Shown here: positions 17,254 through 64,000 of the stretch, piece after piece
Position numbering within the stretch: the stretch's first letter is position 1
Layout of the letters: each line of letters starts with the position of its first letter
From: Sialis fuliginosa
Lineage: Eukaryota; Arthropoda; Insecta; Megaloptera; Sialidae
Length of the DNA: 64,000 nucleotides
Direction: 5' to 3'
Assembly: GCA_961205875.1 (NCBI GenBank)
Contig: OY540813.1
Span: 11,999,001-12,063,000 of the forward strand
The notes under the pieces: generated by a model
Seen by the model: only the letters and a program-made list of their open reading frames with translations
The model's database searches: none
What the model was told of the DNA's origin: nothing
Made by a program: the position numbers and the translations under genes

Positions 17254-17820
17254 AAGTAGTACCAGTTATGGCCGCTATAAGAGCAAGGCTTACTATTTTT
17301 GTGATTGACGGGATTATTTTTTGTAATTCTCATGAACTCATGTTACTAATAAAACAAGTAACTCTTTATTTAATCAATTTAATTACCAAAGTCCGCAAAT
17401 ATAATTTGTTTTTTAAATTATAGCCTTTTATTTTGTTTTTTTTTCCAGTAATGGATAAAGTAAAACCAGTAATGAGCACGTAGTGGTGGACACTTGCTAA
17501 TGATTACAAAATAATAAGTACTACGACACAAAAGATACAAAAGAAAGTATCGTCAAATTTGAAACAATGTAAAGTAGTTGCTATGATAATATAATAATTA
17601 ATTAATAATTTATACTAATAAATCAGTTTAAATGTCCACCATTTTGACACCTATTGGCAGATTGTCATCAAATCATGCTCTAAGACAGTTAAATGTATGT
17701 AGATTAATATTCAGAAATGGTAATAATCAAATAACATATCAACAAATATTTCTAATTCAGTACATTTAATTAAAAAATAGCCATTACTGGGGTCATATCC
17801 AAAACTGGTGCCAGTACCTT
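17254..17820 (-). mobile_element. AAGGTACTGG MITE, copy 1 (inverted)
   Basis: The right end CTGGTGCCAGTACCTT matches the inverted ends of 24854-25382, 43197-43376 and 59370-61140. The left end (AAGTAGTACCAGTTATGGCC) has a small deletion. Internal landmarks include CATTTTGACACCTATTGGC and AGTAATGGATAAAGTAAAAC. It is about 567 bp and non-coding. The bases outside the ends are often AT, but the target-site rule is uncertain. Confidence 0.85.
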
Positions 17821-18424
17821 TTAGAGTTACATTATATGTTGATAATATATAAATATTTTAGTCAGAGAGCTAATAATTAACTAAATGGACTAAATGCCTA
17901 TATTTGATAATTAATTCCACTTGCAAATACTAAATTGTACCATACTCCCACATTTCATGAAATGTATCGTGACAGCTCCTGGACTAAAATAATGTTTTGA
18001 ATATTATCAACACTGTTTGTCAAACTTAATTTATTTGTTATTTCATACAGAACTATAAACGTCTAAATGTAGCTGTGATGTCCAACTGACAAAAAAATAT
18101 ATAATAAAAAAAACATGTATACATATGTATGTACTACATACACATAAAAAATTATATGAAAAGATCCAAATTATTCTACTCACTTCCAGAAAATACAATA
18201 TGCTGAATTTTGATACGATTATTGATTAAAATGCACATAAGAACACAAAATACGGAATTATTAAAATATTGTATTAAAGTTTTCACATTTTTAAATTAAA
18301 GTTTTGCAAAATAAACAAACCAATACACAAACTAACTACAAAACTCTTTCTTTGTCGCGTTAAATTTGAAAAAGACAGAGAATAAAACCATAAGATGTGA
18401 CGATTAATACTGTATTATTTTTGT
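17821..18424. other. No gene seen
   Basis: AT-rich filler between two repeats. No open frame, hairpin or element end is visible. Confidence 0.5.
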
Positions 18425-23289: not shown

Positions 23290-24853
23290 AATATATTATT
23301 TATGAATAGCTCATATATTTTACTTTTTTTTAATATTGGACGTACGATTTTTGAGTCATTAGATACTAAAAATAAAGTTTTTAATTGAAATTCTACACAA
23401 AAATTCTATACAGAGACGTTTTAAACACTGATTATTCGAAACTTCAACCCTTTTAAATACTATAAAAATTATAAAACATAAACATTCACGTGTAGTTTCA
23501 GAACCAGGTTTATTCAAAGTAATGAAAAACTAGAAATACAACGTTGCCATGACAGCATTTTTGTAAGACGCGTGAACACATCATTCGTAAATGTAATAGA
23601 GTGCGATTTACATGCAAACAATGTGTTCGAGTGCAACATCTATAGGCCATAGTATATGTATATTAAAGATATAGTCTATATGTACTGTGGAAAAGAGATA
23701 GTCACTTGGGAATATATACATATATATTGCACAATCTTTTGTATGAAATATACTGCGATCGCCAAATTATATTTAATTTTTTACTTTTAATTATTAACAA
23801 AGTAAAAAATTCCTCCAAAAGTTCTGCATATAAATTAAAAACTAAATTTTTCGAAATCAAATCTTTCTTTTATTGAAAAAATATGGATAGTTCACAACTT
23901 AGGCTAATAACTTTAAATCAATTCAAAATGTATCGAACTTTTTTTTACTTCTATAAGATCTATAAATAAAATAAGAATGAAATAAATAATTTTGGGATAA
24001 GGAAATATATAGCTTAATTTAAAATCTGAATATATTTAAACCCCGAGTTACCACAATTCCCTGAAGTTGCGGCATTTTCTCTCTATTCCATTGACTTTTA
24101 ACTTATAAAATAATAGTTCTTCAATTAGCTTTCAACTTTCTTTTGAATCGAAGATTTGGGGTATGAATCTATTTAAAAAAGCTTAAGATTGTTATATGAG
24201 TTTTATTGCTTTTATTAATAATTAATAAGCTTCAAAAATAAAAGACACGTTTTATTAGACCATAACAACCTCTTTATAAATCTTAAATTCTACGAAGTGT
24301 ATTTTTATACGATCATCTTTTCAATAAAGCTCCCTTTTTGCAGTAAACTGCCAGACGAATCGTTAGAAATCTATTTCTGCCAATATCAGTTATAATCATC
24401 GAAGTGAACTGGAATAAAGTCGTTCGATTGAAGTGACTTAAAAATAGATTCTCATTATTATCGAATCAACAATATGTCTCGTATATTCACTACTACTGAA
24501 TAATATAGATTTTTATATACGTGTGCAGGTATTTTTAGGTATTTGAATTAAATTTTTCCAAACGGTTTAATGCAATGATCATTATTTATGCTATGCTTAC
24601 GACAGCTAAAAGATGGGTTATATAACTTCCTACAGAGATTCTGCGGTTGTTTTCTAAATATGAATGTAACACTTATTTGCAGTATGGTATTTATTTTTTT
24701 ATTTATTTGAGAAACCAATGAAACAACGCATATATTACTCAAACTAAATATCTTAACCACAATAAAACAATGTCACTAGAAACGTGTTCTGACTTCACAA
24801 GAAGTCCATCAGGAGCCTAATAGTTCCATAATTCGTTTTCTAGTAGCGCATAT
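23290..24853. other. No gene seen
   Basis: AT-rich DNA without repeat partners elsewhere in the window that I could find. The minus-strand 70-codon frame at 24548-24760 has no motif or signal sequence. Confidence 0.5.
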
Positions 24854-25382
24854 AAGGTACTGACACCATCTTGGATCATACCCCATTGTTGGATTCTTGT
24901 TTAATTAAATGTACTAAATTAGAAATATTTGTTGATATTTAATTAATGCTATTACTGAATCATAATCTGTAGATACTTGACAGTAAAACAGCTTAATTTG
25001 ATGATAATAGATGTCAAAATGGTGGACATTTAAACTAATTATTAGTGTAATTTATTTATTACATTGTTTCAAATTTAACGATTATTTATTTTATAACTTT
25101 TGTGTCGTAGTACTTATCATTTAGTAATCATTTGCAAGAGTCCATCATTGGGTGCCCGTTACTGGTTTTACTTTATCCATTACTGGAGAAAAAACATAAA
25201 CAAAAACAAAATAAAAGGCTTTAATTTAAAAAAAACTATATTTTTGGACTTTAGTAATTAAATTGATTTAATAACGAGGTAATTCTTTATTAGTAAGATG
25301 AGAATTTCAAAAAAGAAGCCCATCAATCCTAAAAAACAATATATCTTGCTCTTAAAGAGGCCAAGACTGGTGCTAGTACCTT
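24854..25382 (+). mobile_element. AAGGTACTGG MITE, copy 2
   Basis: Starts AAGGTACTGACACCATCTTG and ends CTGGTGCTAGTACCTT. It is the most complete uninterrupted copy in this orientation. Internal landmarks are TTGATATTTAATTAATGC, GTCAAAATGGTGGACATTTA and ACTGGTTTTACTTTATCCAT. It contains no transposase, so it must have been moved in trans. Confidence 0.87.
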
Positions 25383-25999
25383 ATTAGTTTTAGATATTTC
25401 AATTATTATAAGGCTTGATATGTATGTACATATATTAGATCAGATAATTTTTAGCCGTTTAAGAAATAAAAAAAAAGTATATTATAAAATATATTTATAT
25501 GTAGGTATTCTGAATTGATATAAAACATTTTAACTTATCCTTTCTATAAATACATATTACACCAGGAATCAACAACCTTTTTGAGAAGAGGGCCACACAT
25601 ATATTTTGAAGAAAAAAATTTATGAATGTATATAATTGATCAAAAATATAGATAAGAACAGGTACCTTTAAATTAGACGGTCTTACATATCCCTAATTCA
25701 TGTACAGTACATGTTCTTTTCCTTCCTCGGGTAAAGTTTCTTCTTAGTTTCAAGGTCGCGACCATATGTTGATCCAAGATGATGGAACCTTAACCGGAGC
25801 AGACTGTGAATCACCTCAGGGTATTCTCCCGGAATGCTCCGGTAAATCCGGTTGGGGATAAAACTAAATAGAAATGTAATGTAATAAGATACGGCAGCTC
25901 GCACCTGGTACATATAAAACATGTTATCCTGTACCAACCCCCCACCCCCCTGAAACCTACGCGCGCACTACCACCTGCCGCGTCATTCAGGATTCTTCT
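25383..25999. other. No clear gene; mixed-composition segment at 25690-25940
   Basis: Around 25565 the phrase CAGGAATCAACAACC followed by GAGGGCCACACA looks like a hAT terminus, but no partner end is seen. The stretch 25690-25940 is GC-richer and includes CCGGAGCA...TGCTCCGG as a 45-bp-scale inverted pair. A minus-strand frame of 79 codons runs through it. I do not recognise the peptide and would treat it as transposon-derived until shown otherwise. Confidence 0.35.
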
Positions 26000-37202: not shown

Positions 37203-38022
37203 AATATTTTTGCGTTACTTTATCCAGCATTTATTGTTTATAATTCTCATAAAAAAATTGAGTAACTGAAGTAACATAGGGACAGGAGCAAAACTATTTG
37301 TTAGTATAACGTCAACATTGTTTTATTCTAAGAACACTTAATCATTTTGCGATATTATAGTAATATCATAAGTGGTGTTTCTACATAACAATGCACTTGA
37401 CAAATTAATTCGTTGTTTACCATCTATACTAACAACTATATACGAGTAGATAGATATGGATATTCATAATACACTGTATAATACCTGCATTAAAATCTAA
37501 TGCACTGATTGAAGTGTTGTGGTATGTATACACCAGTGTATTAATTTGAATATTGCTGATCTATATTGTGTACACATATTTTAACTTTATATAGTCTGTT
37601 TGAAACCTTCAGGCTTGTTTAACCTTTAACCTGCTGTATATAATGTTGAATTCTACAAATATACATATATATGTATACCTACACATAATCATGCATACGA
37701 ATATGACTATTTACTATTTTAGTAATAATACTTTATATTATACAACAAACATATGTACATTACCATGCAAACAAGACTTGCAAAAAATAATTAAAATTGA
37801 ATAATTAATATTCATATTGAACTACTTGATTTTACTTCCATGTTCTGAAAGAAATGGAAGTATTGTACTAATACCGTTGAAAAATCGTGTCCGAGATAAG
37901 AGCAGATTCTGATTGTACTACCTTCAAAACGCAAAGAAAAATTGATTTCCGCTTAGCGGCTGTGCGTGTGTTTGTATGTAAAATTTTCATTCGTTCACGA
38001 TAACTATTGTAAAAATGCACCG
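37203..38022. other. No gene seen
   Basis: AT-rich non-coding DNA. Nothing bounded or repeated is visible. Confidence 0.5.
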
Positions 38023-38298
38023 ATTTGAATTATTTTTGGGGAAAATATATTTTTCTCAGTTAGTACTCCAGACCTATATTTTGGTGCTATTCAGATTAGG
38101 GGTTTTAGAAATATTTGAATTATTTTTGGGGAAAATATATTTTTCTCAGTTAGTACTCCAGACCTATATTTTGGTGCTATTCAGATTAGGGGTTTTAGAA
38201 ATATTTGAATTATTTTTGGGGAAAATATATTTTTCTCAGTTAGTACTCCAGACCTATTGATTTTGGTGCTATTCAGATTAGGGGTTTTAGAAATATTC
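38023..38298 (+). repeat. Tandem array, three 90-bp units
   Basis: The phrase GGGGAAAATATATTTTTCTC starts at 38037, 38127 and 38217, an exact 90-bp period. Units 1 and 2 look identical; unit 3 differs by a small insertion (CCTATTGATTTT instead of CCTATATTTT) that adds 2 bp. Because 90 is divisible by three, a frame stays open through the array (30-residue repeats) until the insertion. This is a geometric effect, not evidence of a gene. The near identity indicates recent expansion. Confidence 0.96.
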
Positions 38299-42540: not shown

Positions 42541-43196
42541 ATGTATATGTATTAAGATAAAAAATATATTCGTTCAATTTATTTTAAAATACATTCTTTC
42601 TATTTAAATATTTCACAAACTGCGATCTTAATATTTAATTTGAGTTCACCTAACATAAGTTCCAAGTGACAACACAATTTGTTTATAAGAAAAACATGCT
42701 AAATATAAAATATTCTATAATTTATCGAAATATAGTAGCGGAAATCAGAGATTATTTTTTTCTGAAGTTTCATCAAAGATTGCTCTCTTTGATAAATTTT
42801 CGTAATAATAATGTTTACATCATATTTATATTTATTTTTTGCTTTTATATACTTACTAGGGTATTTTCACTAACTCATTTTCTAGAACACTTTTTGCTCA
42901 CGTAATATTGTTCTGTTTATAGAAAATGTAATTAAAAAATAATGAATGTTTTAATCAAAGAAAAATTATAGAACTGCGATTTATTAATTGTTTATTGTAT
43001 CTGTTTATTTGATATTCATATTTTCATATACAGTATTATATAGTATATCAATATCATGCAATTAATAATTAATAACTTTCACTTGAAGAATAACTTTCAA
43101 ATTACTGTAACTTAATATCATTAATTTTAACTGGCGTTCTTCCATAAGAGCAATTAATATCTTACAATTAGTTAAATCTAGTCGATAGAAATGTAT
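42541..43196. other. No gene seen
   Basis: AT-rich. The 79-codon frame at 42666-42905 is low-complexity and unsupported. Confidence 0.5.
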
Positions 43197-43376
43197 AAGG
43201 TACTGGCACCAGTTTTGGATATGATCCCAAGACTATTTTTTAATTAAATGTACTGAATTATAAATATTTGTTGATATTTGATTACTACCATTTCTGAATA
43301 TTAATCTATATACAAATACTGTCACAAAAACAGTGAACCTTGCTCTTATAGCGGCCATAACTGGTGCCAGTACCTT
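43197..43376 (+). mobile_element. AAGGTACTGG MITE, copy 3 (180-bp deletion derivative)
   Basis: The two ends are the best preserved of the family: AAGGTACTGGCACCAGTTTT on the left and ACTGGTGCCAGTACCTT on the right, both followed outward by AT. The left 130 bp and the right 50 bp are joined directly; about 350 bp of centre seen in copies 1, 2 and 4 is missing. This shows that the ends are sufficient to recognise the family. Confidence 0.92.
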
Positions 43377-43639
43377 ATCTATTTTTAGTGATGAAGCAAA
43401 TGGTATGGCATGGAATATGTGTATTTTTCAATAGTACCAATTACCAATACAAATAGTGCCATATATCATTCCATAGAGTGGGAGCATTTGAGTGGTAAAC
43501 AATTTTTATTTTATTGATACTAATGAAAATGGTAAATGATACCATATCATGTGTATGGTGGGTACTTGCAATAATGAAGAAATATAAGTAAATATTTTTT
43601 TTAATTGACAAACATTGAAGAAATCAAAGTATGTTGTCA

Positions 43640-54283: not shown

Positions 54284-55650
54284 TTATATTATAATTAATT
54301 GATTGATATTGGAAAAAATATATAGGTACTTTTTATCCAGTTGAACAACTCCAATTTTTGTCGATTTTCTAATTTTGATACTTGAGTACCTACCCTTCTT
54401 TGACAAAATACTTATTTATTTATTAAAATTTGATTAAAATTTATCTAATTCAGGAATATTTTTAACTCTGTTGCATGTTTTTAAAAAGTTGATGGTAACA
54501 GAACCATAATATCGTAGATACCCGACCAACAACTGTTTCTTTTTGTTATTTATGTACAAATAAGTTTGTTACTCCAATGGATGGAGATTATCCTTGCAAC
54601 AATGCAAAAATAAAATAAAAATGTTTCTTGAATGTGGACAAAAAGTTTACACTTACTGAAATTCCTGAACAAAATGTTTATCAGTGTTTCAACAGTAGAA
54701 TTAGTATCATCAGTACGTTATTTATTTAATATATACTACATTACAATTGTAATTTCCAGATCTTTCATTGAATTAATTAAAATTCAATTCAATGTTGATT
54801 TTGTTAGAATTCTAAAAATAAATAAACAATCAACAAAGCTAAAACTAAAATACTGTTTTCATAAAGTACGATATATGTCGATCTATATTGTTGTGTTTTT
54901 CTATTGTTACGTTAATTTATTTTCTATTGCACCTATAAGATAATCCACCACTGATAACAATTGCAAATGCAAAAATAATTAATAGGAATCAGTGGCTGTA
55001 GTCATGACAAAAACAAAAGAATTTATTAATCAAGCATAGATAATGAAAAAGTATCACATAATGGGAATTAAAAAAATATATCACAGGTTTCATAGTCAAC
55101 AATAACCTCCATTTCTACAATAGGCGTTTGCGTCGTCGTATGGTACGTCACATTGTTAGAACATTCAGAGAGAGAGGATTATGAAAATATTATTTAACAT
55201 TCATTCGCACGTATTTGCTATAATCCTGAATATAGAGTGGAAAAAAATACTATCCGCAATCTTTTTTCTCGCTCTTCTCACTAAAACATATAACTTATAT
55301 ATATGTATATGTGTAGAATGTAGATATATATATTTTGGTTTCGCATATGCAAAACAATGGAACGTCAACTACCATAGATACGATTGTTTTCAACGCCACA
55401 ATGCGCCATCTAGCGGTGTGCGAATGTACTATGTATGTGTAAGACAATGAATTTAATAATATGACTATGCTCTCTATATACTGGTTCTCGTAAAGTTTCT
55501 TAATCTATTTCATGGTTACTTAAACCAAATTAGCTATTTCAACTCTTATTGATGTATAATACTGCAAATTGAGATATTGTTGTAAATATATAAGACACCA
55601 TATATTAATAATTGCTATTTCATTAAATATAATGAATATTATATTTTATA
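54284..55650. other. No proven gene
   Basis: AT-rich. A 103-codon frame at 54632-54943 starts without a strong context, is rich in Ile/Phe/Lys/Tyr, and its length is about what this composition produces by chance in a window of this size. A short GC-richer patch at 55370-55430 (GCCACAATGCGCCATCTAGC) has no partner. Confidence 0.4.
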
Positions 55651-55805
55651 CTAGTTGTGCCCGCGGCTTCGCTCGCGTGGACTACGGAATTATTGTTTAG
55701 GATTTTTGAAAAATATAGTTGAATTAAGTACAAACACCATTAGTTATTATTGTAATAATAACTAATCAACACTTAAATTACCTAAAAAGTAAAAATTTCG
55801 AATAT
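55651..55805 (-). mobile_element. Helitron-like 3' end fragment
   Basis: This is the best copy of the window-start repeat. On the minus strand it ends CGAGCGAAGCCGCGGGCACA then ACTAG before T. CGCGAG...CCGCGG forms the terminal hairpin, and CTAG is intact. Homology to 20-172 covers the palindromic TTAGTTATTATTGTAATAAT-type core. Confidence 0.6.
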
Positions 55806-57568: not shown

Positions 57569-58526
57569 TATATTGTGTTGAATTGTATTTAGTATTTTTT
57601 AAGGTCTTTAGGTTTGTATTTGTTAGGAAGTAATTGTTCTCATTTAAAACTACTTACAAAATATAATCCTCTCTTTTAAGGTAGATATACAATTTATACA
57701 TACATTATTCCTTGTTTCAAAATGTTCATACTTCTATTGTTTTGTTTAAAATAACAGATTTAATTATATCAATCGTAACAAAAAAAATTATTATAATTAA
57801 TTATACTATAGTATTAAATTATATTACTATATAAAAGTTATAGTATCTTGATTAATAAAATAATACTAATAAATATTTCAGATGTATTTCTATAAAAAAT
57901 ATAAATAAATTTTCAAATATAACGAAATATTTTTAATTAAATTTTAATTTATTTAATAATATAAAAATAAATTTTATTAATTGTAAAGGAAGATTTTCTT
58001 AACGTATTCAGTTTGTCACAAAATTTGTTTTACAACTGTTTGCGTACTTAAAAACTTTAAGACTAAAAGCTTTGACATTAATTCAGGAATTTATTTCAAA
58101 GCAGAAAAAAACTATTAATCATTTTTAATATTCCATAAAATTTTTCATGAGAAAAGTAACTCATTAATTACAAATCACGAGGAACGAAGTGAACAGAAAT
58201 ATTTTATTATTTTAATTAGTTTTAAAAACCATCTGTTATGTAGGTACATTTTTTATTTATATGTTGCGCAATTTATTTGACAGTATAAGTATAATATAAG
58301 TTTTATTATTTACGACATATGAAGTTCTCAATACCAATTTCGAAATATAAATACCTTACTACGAATGAAGATGGCATGTGAACGTATTAAAGAAGACATT
58401 TGGCAAAAATTCCAGAAACTAAATTATTATATATTTATAGACATACATAGTTAGTTTATCGTTTTTAACATATTTTTGTTTTTATCATAGAATACGTCTT
58501 AAACACACTGTTCACCTTTTAAAATA
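57569..58526. other. No gene seen
   Basis: Extremely AT-rich, without identifiable features. Confidence 0.5.
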
Positions 58527-58954
58527 CAGGATGAGTAAAAAATATGGAATATTGCTCATATTTTCTAAAATCTTCATTATTTAAAAACAATGTTTTAGTA
58601 AAAGTTTTTAGAGAAATTATTTCCTATGTAATGCTAATCTTTAAAAAATACTTGGTGCTCTCAATGGCATCCAACTCTATTTTTTTCTTATTTAAAAAAA
58701 AAATCGTATGTAATATCATTAAAATTTTCAGGGTTGTATGCAAAAAAAAATAAGATCTATTCATAAAATCAATAAAAAAGACATGCTGTTACTTAAAAAA
58801 ATAGACTTGGGTACCATAGTAAAGTAACTGATAACACCATTTTTTAAAGAATAATATTACAATTATTTTCTCTAAAACCATTTACTGAAATATTTTTTAA
58901 ATAATGGATATTTTCGAAAATACGAGCAATATTCCATATTTTTTACTCACCATG
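58527..58954. mobile_element. MITE with inverted ATATGGAATATTGCTC ends
   Basis: Left end CAGGATGAGTAAAAAATATG then GAATATTGCTC; right end is its complement with few changes (GAGCAATATTCCATATTTTT then TACTCACCATG). Symmetry continues into TATTTTC/GAAAATA. TA flanks both ends (58525-58526, 58955-58956). It is 428 bp, with a partial relative at 15061-15252. The 69-codon frame at 58544-58753 lies inside it and is spurious. Confidence 0.85.
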
Positions 58955-59093
58955 TATAATTTGTACTTAAATGCAAATTTAGAGTACATTTTATGATTTA
59001 AATAATCTATAACGATAAAATAAAATTTCATTTATATAATAAAATTAAAATCTAACTTGAATTTTTATTACAAATTTAATTTTTTGTTCACAG

Positions 59094-59305
59094 CACCGTT
59101 GGTGGTGGCGCCGGGTATTAGTGGCAACAGTAACGACATCACAAGCAACCCCATCTCTGTTTCGCCAACGGCGTTTGAGGATGACGACACGAGTGTTCAA
59201 GCGCCGTTCTATACGCCACAAGAGTCGGCACAGGCTATACTCAGCAGAGTCGGTTCGGCAGCCACCTGTTTAGCGGCAGGTGTCGAGTACACGCATGGAC
59301 AACAG
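59094..59305 (+). CDS. Internal coding exon of an unidentified gene
   Basis: This 212-bp exon is much GC-richer than its surroundings and open in one frame throughout. A strong acceptor precedes it (AATTTTTTGTTCACAG, ending at 59093) and a GT donor follows (CAACAG/GTTAAC at 59306). The first codon is split: one base comes from the previous exon and the exon supplies CA; it ends in phase 0. The translation is about 70 residues: PLVVAPGISGNSNDITSNP, an acidic EDDDTS patch, then TPQESAQAILSRVGSAATCL and AAGVEYTHGQQ. The first half is Ser/Asn/Pro-rich and probably unstructured; the second half looks like an amphipathic helix. I do not recognise the protein and claim no function. Upstream exons are not identifiable in the window; the next exon must lie beyond the transposon complex. 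A frame extending to 59371 reads through the donor and is not coding. Confidence 0.8.
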
Positions 59306-59504
59306 GTTAACCATTTGTTCTATAGATTACATCCAATGTTAAGAACATTTACGTATAAGGTTTCAATATAAGGTAGTGGCACTAGTCTTGGATCATACCC
59401 CAGGCCCCAGTGTTGGACTCTCGTTTAATTAAATGTACTAAAATATAAGTATTTATTGATATTTGATAACTGCCACTACTGAATCATAATCTATAGACAC
59501 TTAA
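59296..59504 (+). repeat. 209-bp tandem duplication, unit 1 (exon end and donor)
   Basis: The unit starts at TGGACAACAG, the last 10 exon bases, and includes the donor GTTAAC, about 64 bp of intron and the first 135 bp of the MITE. It repeats exactly 209 bp downstream. I see one difference between the copies (GCCACTACTGAATC here, GCCACTAATGAATC in unit 2). The junction has the microhomology ATGG. Confidence 0.95.
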
Positions 59505-59699
59505 TGGACAACAGGTTAACCATTTGTTCTATAGATTACATCCAATGTTAAGAACATTTACGTATAAGGTTTCAATATAAGGTAGTGGCACTAGTCTTGG
59601 ATCATACCCCAGGCCCCAGTGTTGGACTCTCGTTTAATTAAATGTACTAAAATATAAGTATTTATTGATATTTGATAACTGCCACTAATGAATCATAAT
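59505..59699 (+). repeat. 209-bp tandem duplication, unit 2 (interrupted)
   Basis: Second copy, with an identical CAACAG/GTTAAC donor at 59514/59515. It runs to ATCATAAT (59692-59699), where the hAT element enters, and resumes at 60718 with CTATAGACACTTAATGG, after which the MITE continues uniquely. Use of this second donor would add 209 bp (not a multiple of three) and reach an in-frame TAA at the end of the intron segment. Confidence 0.95.
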
Positions 59700-60709
59700 T
59701 AGGGTTTGCAATCCCGCAGACTTTTTTTTCCCGCGGGAATTTTGCGGGAAATCTGTAAATCCCGCGGGATCCCGCGGGATCCCGCACTTTTTCCAAAATT
59801 TTTCCAACATTTTTATTATTCATGCTTAAAATTACTATTATTTAGTTAACATGACAATTAAATAATGAAAAATAGTTTCATAGCGGTAACATATGATACA
59901 TAAACGTAACATGTACTGTATAGACCGACGTAAAATCCATAAAATACACCTGTGAATAGGATTGTCTAATATGTTAGGTACAAGTACAAGATGCTTCTAA
60001 CTACTTTTGTCTTTTTGTTCGATTATCCATTTCAATTTTTTTAAGTCCTTCGTTGCTTATAAATTAGCCCTTGTTTTATACGTAGGTCGCCTTTTACGCC
60101 GCGCTGGTATATACGGTATGTCACTAAAACTAAACCATTAAATATCATTATTTACGGTTGTATTTTAGGGACAATCTGTTAAAAAATATCGTGTAGATCG
60201 TATAGAAAAAGATAGTTTTGAGAAAACACGAATTTTGTGTATTAAATTTTTGTGGTTAACTTTCATTTAATCTGCCATTCTTCTTCTAAATTTTTGTATT
60301 TCGTATTTTTTATGTTTTTTTTTGTAATCTGCGGGCTGTTCGAGCTTCTTTCGTCGCCTGAGTCGCACGAATCCTGGCATGTTTTAATCGGTTGTGCGGT
60401 CACATTTTTCGAACGTTTTTTTTTTTTAATTCTGGAGGTATGTAACCACTTAACTAATCGTGAACAATATATAATTTATTTCACTAGTTTCATATTCAGT
60501 CATCTCAACCTTAATTTTTTTTCAAAATTGTTACCTTTTTTTATCCATATTTACGCTTTATAAGTATTCAAAACGCACGCGACCTACAAATTTAATGTTC
60601 AAAAAATTCCGCGCGGATCCCGCATTTTCAGTGCGGGATCCGCAGATCTCCAAAACGTGCGGGATCCCGCGGAAATGCGGGATCCCGCATTGCGGGATTG
60701 CAAACCCTA
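59700..60709. mobile_element. hAT element, 1010 bp, with perfect 8-bp duplication
   Basis: Ends TAGGGTTTGCAATCCCGC and its exact complement GCGGGATTGCAAACCCTA. The octamer ATCATAAT is duplicated on both sides (59692-59699, 60710-60717). Subterminal GCGGGATCCCGC-type palindromes are packed within about 80 bp of each end (59725-59785 and 60610-60690); they may be transposase-binding sites (inference). Too short for a full hAT transposase, it is non-autonomous. A frame on the minus strand may be a transposase fragment. The AT-rich plus frame at 60252-60563 is likely its shadow. Confidence 0.93.
60263..60475 (-). pseudogene. Possible transposase fragment inside the hAT element
   Basis: The minus strand is open for 70 codons (no ATG at the start), with CSRLVKWLHTSRIKKKKRSK then NVTAQPIKTCQDSCDSGDER and ending EEEWQIK and a stop. 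The mix of a basic stretch and a Ser/Asp/Glu-rich linker is like the region after the BED zinc finger in some hAT transposases, but no finger or catalytic motif is present. The assignment rests on location more than on sequence. Confidence 0.3.
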
Positions 60710-61140
60710 ATCATAATCTATAGACACTTAATGGTAAAACAGCTTAATTTGATGACAATCGGCCAATGGGTGTCAAAATGGTGGACATTTTAATTAATTA
60801 TTGTACCTATTATCATAACATCTGCTTTACATTGTTTACAATTTTACGATTCTTTATTTTATAACTTTTGTTTCGCAGTACTTATCCTTTTGTAATCCTT
60901 AGCAAGTGTCTATCACTAGATGCCCATTACTGGTTTTACTTTTCCATTACTGAAGAAAAACAAACAGAATAAAAGACTATAATTAAAAAAAACTATATTT
61001 GCGAACTTTGGTAATTAAATTGATTTAATAATTGTTTTATTAGTTACATGCGTTCATGAGAATAACAAAAAAGAAGCACATCAATCTCAAAAAACAGTAT
61101 ACCTTGCTCATAAGGCGGCGAAGACTGGTGCCAGTATCTT

Positions 61141-63113
61141 AGGTGTGTGTTTTATTAAATATTAATATTTACGTTGCGGGTGATAATTATTTGTATTTTT
61201 ATTTGGAGGCGATATTTGTTTTGAATACATAAAATATAAAAAATTAAAAATCGTAAACTATCCAGCTCAACGTGCGCTCTACAGCATGAATAATTGTAAT
61301 TCCACTTTGTCCATCTGATCTACTGAATGTCCAATAGAACTATTGCTTCAAAGCAATTCAATATACATACTCAATATCAATTGATTGTCTAATTAAGCTT
61401 TTATTAGTACTCACACGTTCGAATAATCAAAGAGATACATATTATATGCATATATATAATATGCAATAATGTTATTAGGAATAGGAGGGGGCGGTCTGCC
61501 CCGGCTGACACCCTCAAGAAGGTGACACCCATCTGATATATTGAAAAACAAGGCCTATTTACCTTTTTGAGGTTATTTAAAACTTTCAGGGGATAAAATG
61601 TATAATAATTAAAGTCAATTTGCATTTTTTTTTTTGGTCGTAAGGGATGATAACCGTCTAATTTATAAATAATAGAGACCACTGATATTTTTTTTGTCGT
61701 TTAAAACTCACAGATGGTGACACCCACATTATGTGCAAAAGCTAAAACCTACTAGTTTTTTGGAGGGGAGTAACACGCGACTTCGCCCGGGTATCATCCC
61801 CCCTTGCGACGTCGCTGAATATATGTAGGATCAACTGGGGTAAAAGTGAAACAAAACACAAATCTTTAATGTTTTTTGACAGTTAACGATACAAATTCAT
61901 ACTTTAATTTTTTCTACTAGATGCGCTTATGAATAACCATTTTAAATACTAACGTCATTTGAACTATGTACGATACAACACGGATTTAAAAAATGAAAAA
62001 AGTGTGTTTTATTTTTAACCTCTAATTTAGAAAAAAGTGAAACAGGTAAGGGAAAAAGTGAAACAGGCCTCTAATGGAAAATATTTCTCGAAAAATTAAA
62101 AGAAAAGCTACTTTGGCAACTTTAATTTCCATAGACATTTAAAAAATTTAATAGTGCCTCATAGCAACTTGAAAATCACTCAAACTGTTTTTTAATATTA
62201 ATAAAATAGTCACTAATATCTGCACATAGGTTTAATTTTATAAAACTTTGTGTTGGATATATTTTATTAGTTCAATTAATTTTAAAACGAATTACGTACT
62301 TGGTATAAGAAAGCATTTTCCGTTTTATTGTGTAGCGCCTCATAAATAAAAATAAATTTTCATAAGTGCATATATGAGAGAAAGAGAGAGTAGAGGTCAC
62401 ACGGGTTTTTTATTTACTGCCTTCAGCTCCACAGTTTGTAGGTGACCACTGGGGCGATGTTATAAATCACATCTTAAGTAGGGGTTAGCGAGCCATATGT
62501 TAGGCACAGTGATATTTAAATTGTTATTATAAAAATACTGTATAGGTTCTATATAATATAAAACATAAGTCAACAAATCAAGCGTAAATGCATAAATTTC
62601 GCGGTATTAATTATTTTCATATATTTAAATGAGATTTTTTTGATCTGTAATTGATAAATTGCACACCCCAAGCAAGCTATATTTGGATGTGTGTTATTTT
62701 CTCGTCCTAAATATTTTTTCGTATGTATATTGATAAAATTAGCATTATATCGTAAATTTCTTTAGTAACCCACTTAAAAGTTTACATTTTCTGAAAGAAA
62801 ACATTACAGTCTCCATATTTACTTAGTTTAATATCGATTGGTTTTAATTTTATCTTATAAAAATATAAACAAAAATCAAATGTCGAGAAATTGAAATTTT
62901 TAAATGACGGCAACATGCTACAGGTCGCAAAACGTAATAAATTTACAGAAATCATTTTGAACAGAAGCGAGGCGTGAAATTTTTAAAAGGGAAGCATATT
63001 TTGTCAATCCTCCCCCTCCTATTAACAAAAAAAACTAGTTATGAAACAGCTTTAGTTCAAGCTTTTACTTTTTTAAATAAATTCTTATATATTTATATAG
63101 TAACTAAATGATT
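61141..63113. other. No gene seen; scattered transposon-like motifs
   Basis: 61490-61530 (GGGGGCGGTCTGCCCCGGCT then GACACCC) and a second GGTGACACCCA at about 61715 are transposon-like. CTAGTTTTTTGGAGGGGAGT next to ACACGCGACTTCGCCCGGG (61752-61790) is a degenerate relative of the CTAG/GCTTCGC Helitron-like ends. Between 61845 and 62070 AAAAGTGAAAC recurs four times. Otherwise AT-rich; no exon of the 59094 gene is recognisable here. Confidence 0.4.
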
Positions 63114-63813
63114 CTACGTCTTATTTTCTTATATTTTAGTCAATATTTGTATGACGAGTTGAAGTTAACTGCATTTTTGATGATTTATTGTATAGAAAAT
63201 GACGTGAAAAGTTGAAATTTTCAAACCGCAGGTCTGTATCTCAAACCGTTCTCGAGATATAGCCTCTTAAAGTTTTAGTTTTTTCAAATTTTTGGAGAAA
63301 AAAGGCCATAACTTTTGAACGCGTGGTCGGAATTGATTTTAGTTGACGGATTTGAAATCAGCGTGTCAAAATCTATATAATGACATGTATAATACTTTAA
63401 AATCCGACAAAAAAAATTTGGTCAAAAATCGACATTTTTTTAAGGTATACCCCTTTGAATTTTTTTCGATTTTTCACAAAATTTTTTTTTTCGAGTTTTA
63501 AGGTATTATACATGTCATTATATAGATTTTGACACACTGATTCCAAATCCGCCAATTAAAATCAATTCCGACCATCCATTCAAAAGTTAGGGCCATTTTT
63601 CTTCAAAATTTTGGAAAAACTGAAACTTTGATAGGCTATATCTCAATAACGGTTTGAAATACAGACCTGCGGTTTGAAAATTTCAACTTTTCACGTCATT
63701 TTCTATACAATAAACATACTTTTAACGAAATCAAAAATTCAAAAAAAATTTGTGAAATTTCTTGCAGAAATTTCATACAAATATCGACTAAAATACAAGA
63801 AAATAAGACGTAG
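63114..63813. mobile_element. 700-bp foldback element
   Basis: Starts CTACGTCTTATTTTCTTATA and ends with the complement. Arms of over 300 bp pair with about 10% mismatches: AAATGACGTGAAAAGTTGAA, AACCGCAGGTCTGTAT, GGTCGGAATTGATTTTA and GTCAAAATCTATATAATGAC are each found inverted in the other arm. The centre is near 63448 (AAGGTATACCCCTTTG). The right arm has a short extra segment near 63715-63775. There is no clear target duplication. Transcription through it would give a long hairpin RNA. Confidence 0.92.
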
Positions 63814-64000
63814 AGGTATTATAGTTTTATAATTAAACGTGTAAATTAATATTAAATGTTATTTTTGACTTTTGGTTAAAATGTTTGGGTTGCGCATAAA
63901 GATGAATATTCTAATAATATTTTTAAATTATTTATTAACTAAAAACACAGATTTGTATTAATTTACCCAAAAAGAAAAGAAAGCACTGCTTCCTCTGCTT

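Follow-up and report, generated by a model that had tools for sequence, protein, structure and literature searches.

The exon at 59094-59305 of the stretch of Sialis fuliginosa DNA analysed here is followed by two identical copies of its 5' splice site (donor). This raises the question of whether the donor has indeed been duplicated, by which route, and which RNAs such an arrangement would yield. The stretch, hereafter the window, comprises 64,000 nucleotides (bases 11,999,001-12,063,000 of its contig; the genome amounts to 392 Mb in 20 contigs), and all positions are given in window numbering. An earlier note on this DNA had proposed that the exon end and its donor were tandemly duplicated together with a MITE.

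The sequence ATGGACAACAGGTTAAC begins at 59295 and recurs at 59504, an offset of 209, and the same two starting points are found for ATGGACAACAGGTTAACC. Each of the two units contains ATGGACAACAG/GTTAAC (the slash marks the exon-intron junction) and the first 133 bp of a MITE-like repeat. The parts concerned are as follows.

59295-59503, plus strand: unit 1, 209 bp, made up of the last 11 nt of the exon, the donor, 63 nt of intron, the target-site TA and the first 133 bp of the repeat.
59371-59503, plus strand: the first 133 bp of the repeat in unit 1, shortened by the duplication.
59504-59699, plus strand: unit 2 up to the hAT-like insert; the remaining 13 bp of the unit are at 60718-60730.
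59580-61139, plus strand: the full MITE-like repeat, 542 bp without the hAT-like element, TA-flanked, with family ends AGGTACTGGCACCAGTCTTGG.
59700-60709, no strand assigned: hAT-like element of 1,010 bp with a 19-bp perfect terminal inverted repeat (TIR), TAGGGTTTGCAATCCCGCA, which interrupts unit 2.
60731-60734, plus strand: third ATGG, the 3' breakpoint inside the repeat.

Comparison of 59295-59503 with 59504-59699 showed 195 of 196 bases to be identical (99.5%, E=7.3e-98), which is far beyond chance. Over 59295-59490 the only mismatch is a C at 59479 facing an A at 59688. The two identical donors 209 bp apart and the single mismatch reported in the earlier note are thereby confirmed, its coordinates being off by a few bases at most. 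The start of the repeat is present in both units, as claimed (133 bp in each, where the note has 135 bp); the repeat, of about 542 bp, runs past the interval given there (59094-60732) and ends near 61139. We also searched the genome itself with 59094-59500. Among the 42 matches listed, the exon end is included in just two, both of them at this locus. A tandem donor duplication is defined by two adjacent copies of the exon-intron junction derived from one event; this is what is present here, and the copies have private changes in common. As read from the assembly, this is a single 209-bp tandem duplication that runs from within the exon to within a repeat already residing in the intron.

The repeat itself has at least 40 matches outside the locus, and all 40 of those listed start at or after about 59360. 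This copy number is a lower bound, because 40 of 3,474 candidates were scored. For comparison we used 23 relatives, namely the first 20 of the 40 listed matches and three window copies. In 21 of them the match extends well beyond the duplication breakpoint; that of one relative (L022) ends about 10 bp past it, and that of the window copy at 43194 breaks off just short of it. The far end of the repeat (near 61139-61141) is reached by seven of the 23 in one match and by an eighth in a second piece, several other relatives being cut by the ends of the fetched stretches. The repeat is thus short (about 542 bp), its two ends form inverted repeats (at or near AGGTACTGGCACCAGTCTTGG), and it is present in many copies (at least 40 matches elsewhere), as is characteristic of MITEs. 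Of 22 rows, in which L008 and L014 are one place, 20 have a TA, itself a short palindrome, outside the left end of the repeat; of the 12 rows that show the right end, 10 have it there. TA is likely to be the target site.

Further TA-flanked copies of the repeat are present in the window at 24850-25383, 17261-17839 and 43194-43377, the last with an internal deletion. A fold-back element at 58524-58957, with 64-bp arms that are 91% complementary and 306 bp between them, stops about 137 bp 5' of the exon and is possibly a second MITE-like element beside it. Elsewhere in the window, an open frame at 37982-38260 repeats ELFLGKIYFSQLVLQTYILVLFRLGVLEIF in tandem, perhaps as a minisatellite, and 55650-55685 contains GTGCCCGCGGCTTCGCTCGCGTGG, which is typical of butterfly and moth repeats and may hint at Lepidoptera.

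The relatives allow the history of the locus to be read. Three substitutions common to both units are seen in none of the 23 relatives, and a 7-bp insertion common to both units faces nothing in 22 of the 23, the other (L012) having a different 7-mer. These private changes imply that both units descend from one inserted copy of the repeat. The abundance of the repeat would make two independent insertions conceivable in place of one duplication; however, the duplicated stretch also includes exon and intron sequence beyond the repeat, and the private changes common to both units rule this possibility out for practical purposes. It is also very improbable that the animal has one unit and that the second is an artefact of assembly. 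The units differ at 59479 and 59688, the hAT-like element with its proper target-site duplication (TSD) is present in unit 2 alone, and the 20 large contigs suggest that the assembly was made from long reads, which would easily span 209 bp.

At the mismatch position all 23 relatives have C, so unit 1 is ancestral and the A of unit 2 is derived; the point change therefore arose in unit 2 after the duplication. The hAT-like element is flanked by the 8-bp TSD ATCATAAT (59692-59699 and 60710-60717), which together with its TIR identifies it as such. Its target is intact in unit 1, and hence it was inserted later than the duplication. The reverse order was considered and rejected: the target in unit 1 is uninterrupted and without a footprint, and precise excision would be required. 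The order given in the earlier note (insertion of the MITE, duplication, insertion of the hAT-like element) is thus well supported by what the 23 relatives and the intact target in unit 1 indicate.

The same note ascribed the duplication to microhomology at an ATGG. The breakpoints do have ATGG in common, but this is not what the repeat family has at that position, where AATGG is found in 0 of the 23 relatives and AACTG in 14. The 4-bp match therefore relies on changes private to this copy. Of 100,000 points drawn at random with a spacing of 209 bp, 3.5% have a tract of at least 4, and we regard the case for microhomology as fair but not strong. A longer homology at the breakpoints (ATGG-ACAACAGGTTAA versus ATGGTAAAACAGCTTAA) was rejected as not compelling, its local score being reached by 6.4% of 3,000 random 36-mer pairs.

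The divergence between the units, one difference in 196 bp, amounts to 0.5% with a 95% interval of 0.013-2.8%. With an assumed butterfly mutation rate of 2.9e-9, the duplication would be about 0.9 million generations old (interval 0.02 to 4.9 million). Conversion between the units would make it look younger than it really is. With so wide an interval, the description of the duplication as young is not established.

To what kind of gene does the duplicated donor belong? The host exon was recognised from its open frame, its splice sites and its in-phase joining to exons downstream.

59094-59305, plus strand: internal coding exon, 212 nt, phase 1 in and phase 0 out, encoding ...CLAAGVEYTHGQQ and the start of a VWC-like module.

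Its GC content is 56%, versus 28.7% for the window. Three downstream exons, which were placed by eye, are at 67895-68042, 70683-70940 and 71411-71574, beyond the window (locus L029). Joined across GT-AG introns, the four exons form one frame that continues to a stop codon, which upholds the exon status assumed in the earlier note. Against Pfam VWC the joined protein scores 22.9 bits (E=1.1e-4), short of the curated cutoff of 27.6 bits, and on this sequence comparison we call it VWC-like without filing it as a member of VWC. The match falls in two stretches at E<=1, the better of which covers residues 59-111. Exons 1 and 2 alone match VWC with E=0.0035. Searched alone against Pfam, exon 59094-59305 gave no VWC match and a weak match to VIGSSK (E=0.11), and the last exon gave no match at all, so that the second VWC module is a reading by eye. 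The other Pfam matches of the joined protein are weaker and concern extracellular modules (FnI_RECK, Fn1_2, TILa and PSP94). A PDB sequence search with the exon returned three NMDA-receptor chains at E 0.65-1.2, which are not useful; the same search with the longer joined protein returned nothing at E<=1, and a literature search on insect VWC and tenectin found nothing related. The duplicated donor sits within the first VWC-like module, between EYTHGQQ and IYRADPCEFCLC. Among the top-ranked rows of a GC-based scan for upstream exons, which covered the window, 10 kb before it and 40 kb after it, there was no convincing candidate; the scan missed the real exon at 67895-68042 and is therefore weak evidence on this point.

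Four sites in and around the units bear on how the transcript may be spliced. The U1 duplex energies given for them and below are predictions for pairing with the U1 5' end.

59306-59311, plus strand: donor 1, CAG/GTTAAC, predicted U1 duplex -5.6 kcal/mol, giving an in-phase junction with the next exon.
59369-59371, plus strand: in-frame stop TAA, formed by the target-site TA and the first base of the repeat.
59373-59378, plus strand: donor-like site in the end of the repeat, AAG/GTAGTG, predicted U1 duplex -7.0 kcal/mol, with a second copy at 59582.
59513-59520, plus strand: AG/GTTAAC of copy 2, which is donor 2 and whose AG is also a potential 3' splice site.

Downstream of the two donors, 185 nt of sequence are identical except for one base. 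The predicted pairing of donor 1 with U1 (-5.6 kcal/mol) compares with -7.5 and -6.9 kcal/mol for the gene's next two donors, and of the 417 GT sites in the intron, 28 (donors 1 and 2 among them) equal or exceed donor 1 in predicted U1 pairing. The best predicted pairing among the GT sites in 59306-59514 is that of the site at 59373. Predicted accessibility from local folding is low for both donors (0.03 for donor 1 and 0.01 for donor 2). The donor-like motif at the end of the repeat reads AAG/GTA(C/G)TG, and the many genomic copies of the repeat could supply cryptic donors in other introns. Segment 59306-59514 starts with GTTAAC and ends with ACAACAG, and it is thus bounded exactly by GT and AG, with AG/GT at the join. 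Neither this GT...AG-bounded unit of 209 nt nor the donor-like site in the repeat formed part of the earlier note's reading; because of the former, donor-2 use may be just one of several alternatives to normal splicing.

Splicing from donor 1 to the exon at 67895 gives the normal mRNA and removes an intron of 8,589 nt. Use of donor 2 retains 209 nt and adds 21 codons before the TAA; the earlier note had rightly predicted an in-frame stop but placed it after about 22 intron-encoded codons. Use of the first donor-like site of the repeat (59373) would retain 67 nt and reach the same stop. Under the distance rule of nonsense-mediated decay (NMD), a stop lying 143 nt before the donor-2 junction makes the donor-2 RNA a likely NMD target.

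We consider it probable that the duplication is near-silent, with donor 1 as the main site and RNAs from donor 2 or the repeat site mostly cleared by NMD. Donor 1 would stay the main site because it gives a 212-nt exon, against 421 nt with donor 2, and because the full-length protein needs the donor-1 junction. A minority of transcripts would use donor 2 or the donor-like site at the repeat's end; these would carry the stop at 59369 and mostly be removed by NMD, so the net outcome would be a modest loss of mRNA. For this outcome, with probable loss of donor-2 RNA to NMD, the 8-bp donor duplication of human OCT1 is the nearest measured parallel that we found. Against dominance of donor 1 speak its own modest strength and the poor accessibility predicted for both donors. 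Donor choice, NMD and fixation are what we infer from sequence.

Classical in vitro work has shown that, of two equal donors, the intron-proximal (downstream) one can be favoured. Donor 2, which is nearer the acceptor, might be heavily used, and the allele would then be a strong loss of function or a polymorphism on its way out. The identity of the donors and of nearly all the sequence that follows them would allow this, as would the OCT1 minigenes, in which about half of the splicing used the downstream copy (PMC8137991). Yet heavy use of donor 2 requires recognition of a 421-nt exon whose end lies in AT-rich repeat sequence, and the duplication has outlasted both the hAT-like insertion and a point change while the downstream exons have stayed open; we consider this outcome unlikely. 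Somewhat less likely still is that the 209 nt behave as a nascent intron or recursive splice site, donor 1 being joined to the AG of copy 2 so that CAG/GTTAAC is remade and spliced onward; we give the same low credence to the variant in which a donor-2 transcript is spliced a second time. Since the exon's own CAG closes the copied unit, the 209 nt could be removed either ahead of the main intron or once that is gone. Both orders of splicing restore the normal mRNA, and the duplication would therefore correct itself. It is thus a slim possibility that the duplication of the donor itself made a GT...AG intron, and with it a self-correcting recursive site at an exon end, in a single step.

Apart from the exact GT...AG bounds and the AG/GT at the join, this last reading can draw on the widely cited model in which tandem copies holding AGGT give rise to new introns, exemplified by the potato RdRp gene (PMC4974935), and on Drosophila, where re-splicing can use very weak sites and one cDNA construct was re-spliced at a 3' site that offers nothing but an AG (PMC8184009). 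In the same work, however, the exon junction complex normally keeps weak regenerated sites silent, although they can be re-spliced (PMC8184009). The acceptor is also poor: pyrimidines make up 0.40 of the 20 nt before the copy-2 AG, against 0.55 for the acceptor of the next exon and 0.65 for that of this exon, the latter value measured one base out of register. By the branch-site consensus, the only branch-like sequence noticed is CTTAAT at 59500-59505, which at 8-13 nt before the copy-2 AG is too close to it for a good branch site. A recursive splice site combines AG/GT with an upstream polypyrimidine tract; here the AG/GT is present and the tract absent, and the corresponding motif Y5+N0-4YAGGT (PMC10156609) does not occur on the plus strand of 59300-64000. 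The self-correcting nascent intron would thus be permitted by the sequence without being favoured by it, and the near-silent duplication with donor 1 as the main site remains our preferred reading.

Donor duplication is a known type of mutation, and this locus is a further instance of unusually clean design. Because precedents exist, what makes it valuable is the test it offers, not the kind of mutation. The two donors are identical and their downstream sequences nearly so, and they differ solely in the upstream sequence and in the distance to the acceptor. Minigene studies have to construct such donor pairs; a natural one in an animal gene would allow the effect of exon context and position on splice-site choice to be measured in native transcripts, and it could also show whether a donor duplication seeds a recursive site or a new intron. 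None of the papers listed from the open-licence PMC literature describes a comparable donor duplication that carries a transposon.

The closest counterpart is the human SLC22A1/OCT1 variant rs35854239, an 8-bp duplication of the exon 7 donor, for which alternative splicing is given as 38-52% in minigenes and 0.3-0.6% in liver, with the original donor slightly preferred (PMC8137991). Both cases are tandem duplications of an exon-intron junction that yield two donors, and use of the downstream donor brings a frameshift and a premature stop in OCT1, as predicted for the present case. They differ in length (209 bp here versus 8 bp), and the parts of the OCT1 paper on which we draw mention no repeat element; moreover, OCT1 is a measured polymorphism, whereas the present case comes from one assembly and from its sequence.

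In the potato RdRp gene too, a tandem copy bearing AGGT puts GT and AG around one unit and crosses an exon-intron boundary. There, the duplication spans the 3' splice site and takes over a genuine acceptor, whereas here it is the 5' splice site that is crossed, the acceptor is a weak exonic CAG, and splicing of the unit is putative. For the fungal [D] stwintrons of the Lipomyces reticulon-like gene, a duplicated donor has been proposed as an intermediate towards an intron nested within a donor, as could be the case here, and one-step as well as two-step removal is possible there in one species (PMC7138796). Those duplications measure 4-7 nt, and distinct 3' sites arose within the intron, unlike the present case, in which the copied exon end supplies the AG. 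Finally, the copy-2 junction resembles the recursive and re-splicing sites of Drosophila in its juxtaposed AG/GT, which is able to regenerate a donor (PMC8605326, PMC8184009). The ratchet points of flies are conserved and mostly lie in long introns (mean of about 50 kb), unlike this recent duplicate without a pyrimidine tract in an intron of 8.6 kb. Recursive exons are influenced by donor competition and exon sequence (PMC8605326), and in humans distal exon ends with YAG/GT can serve as recursive sites (PMC10156609).
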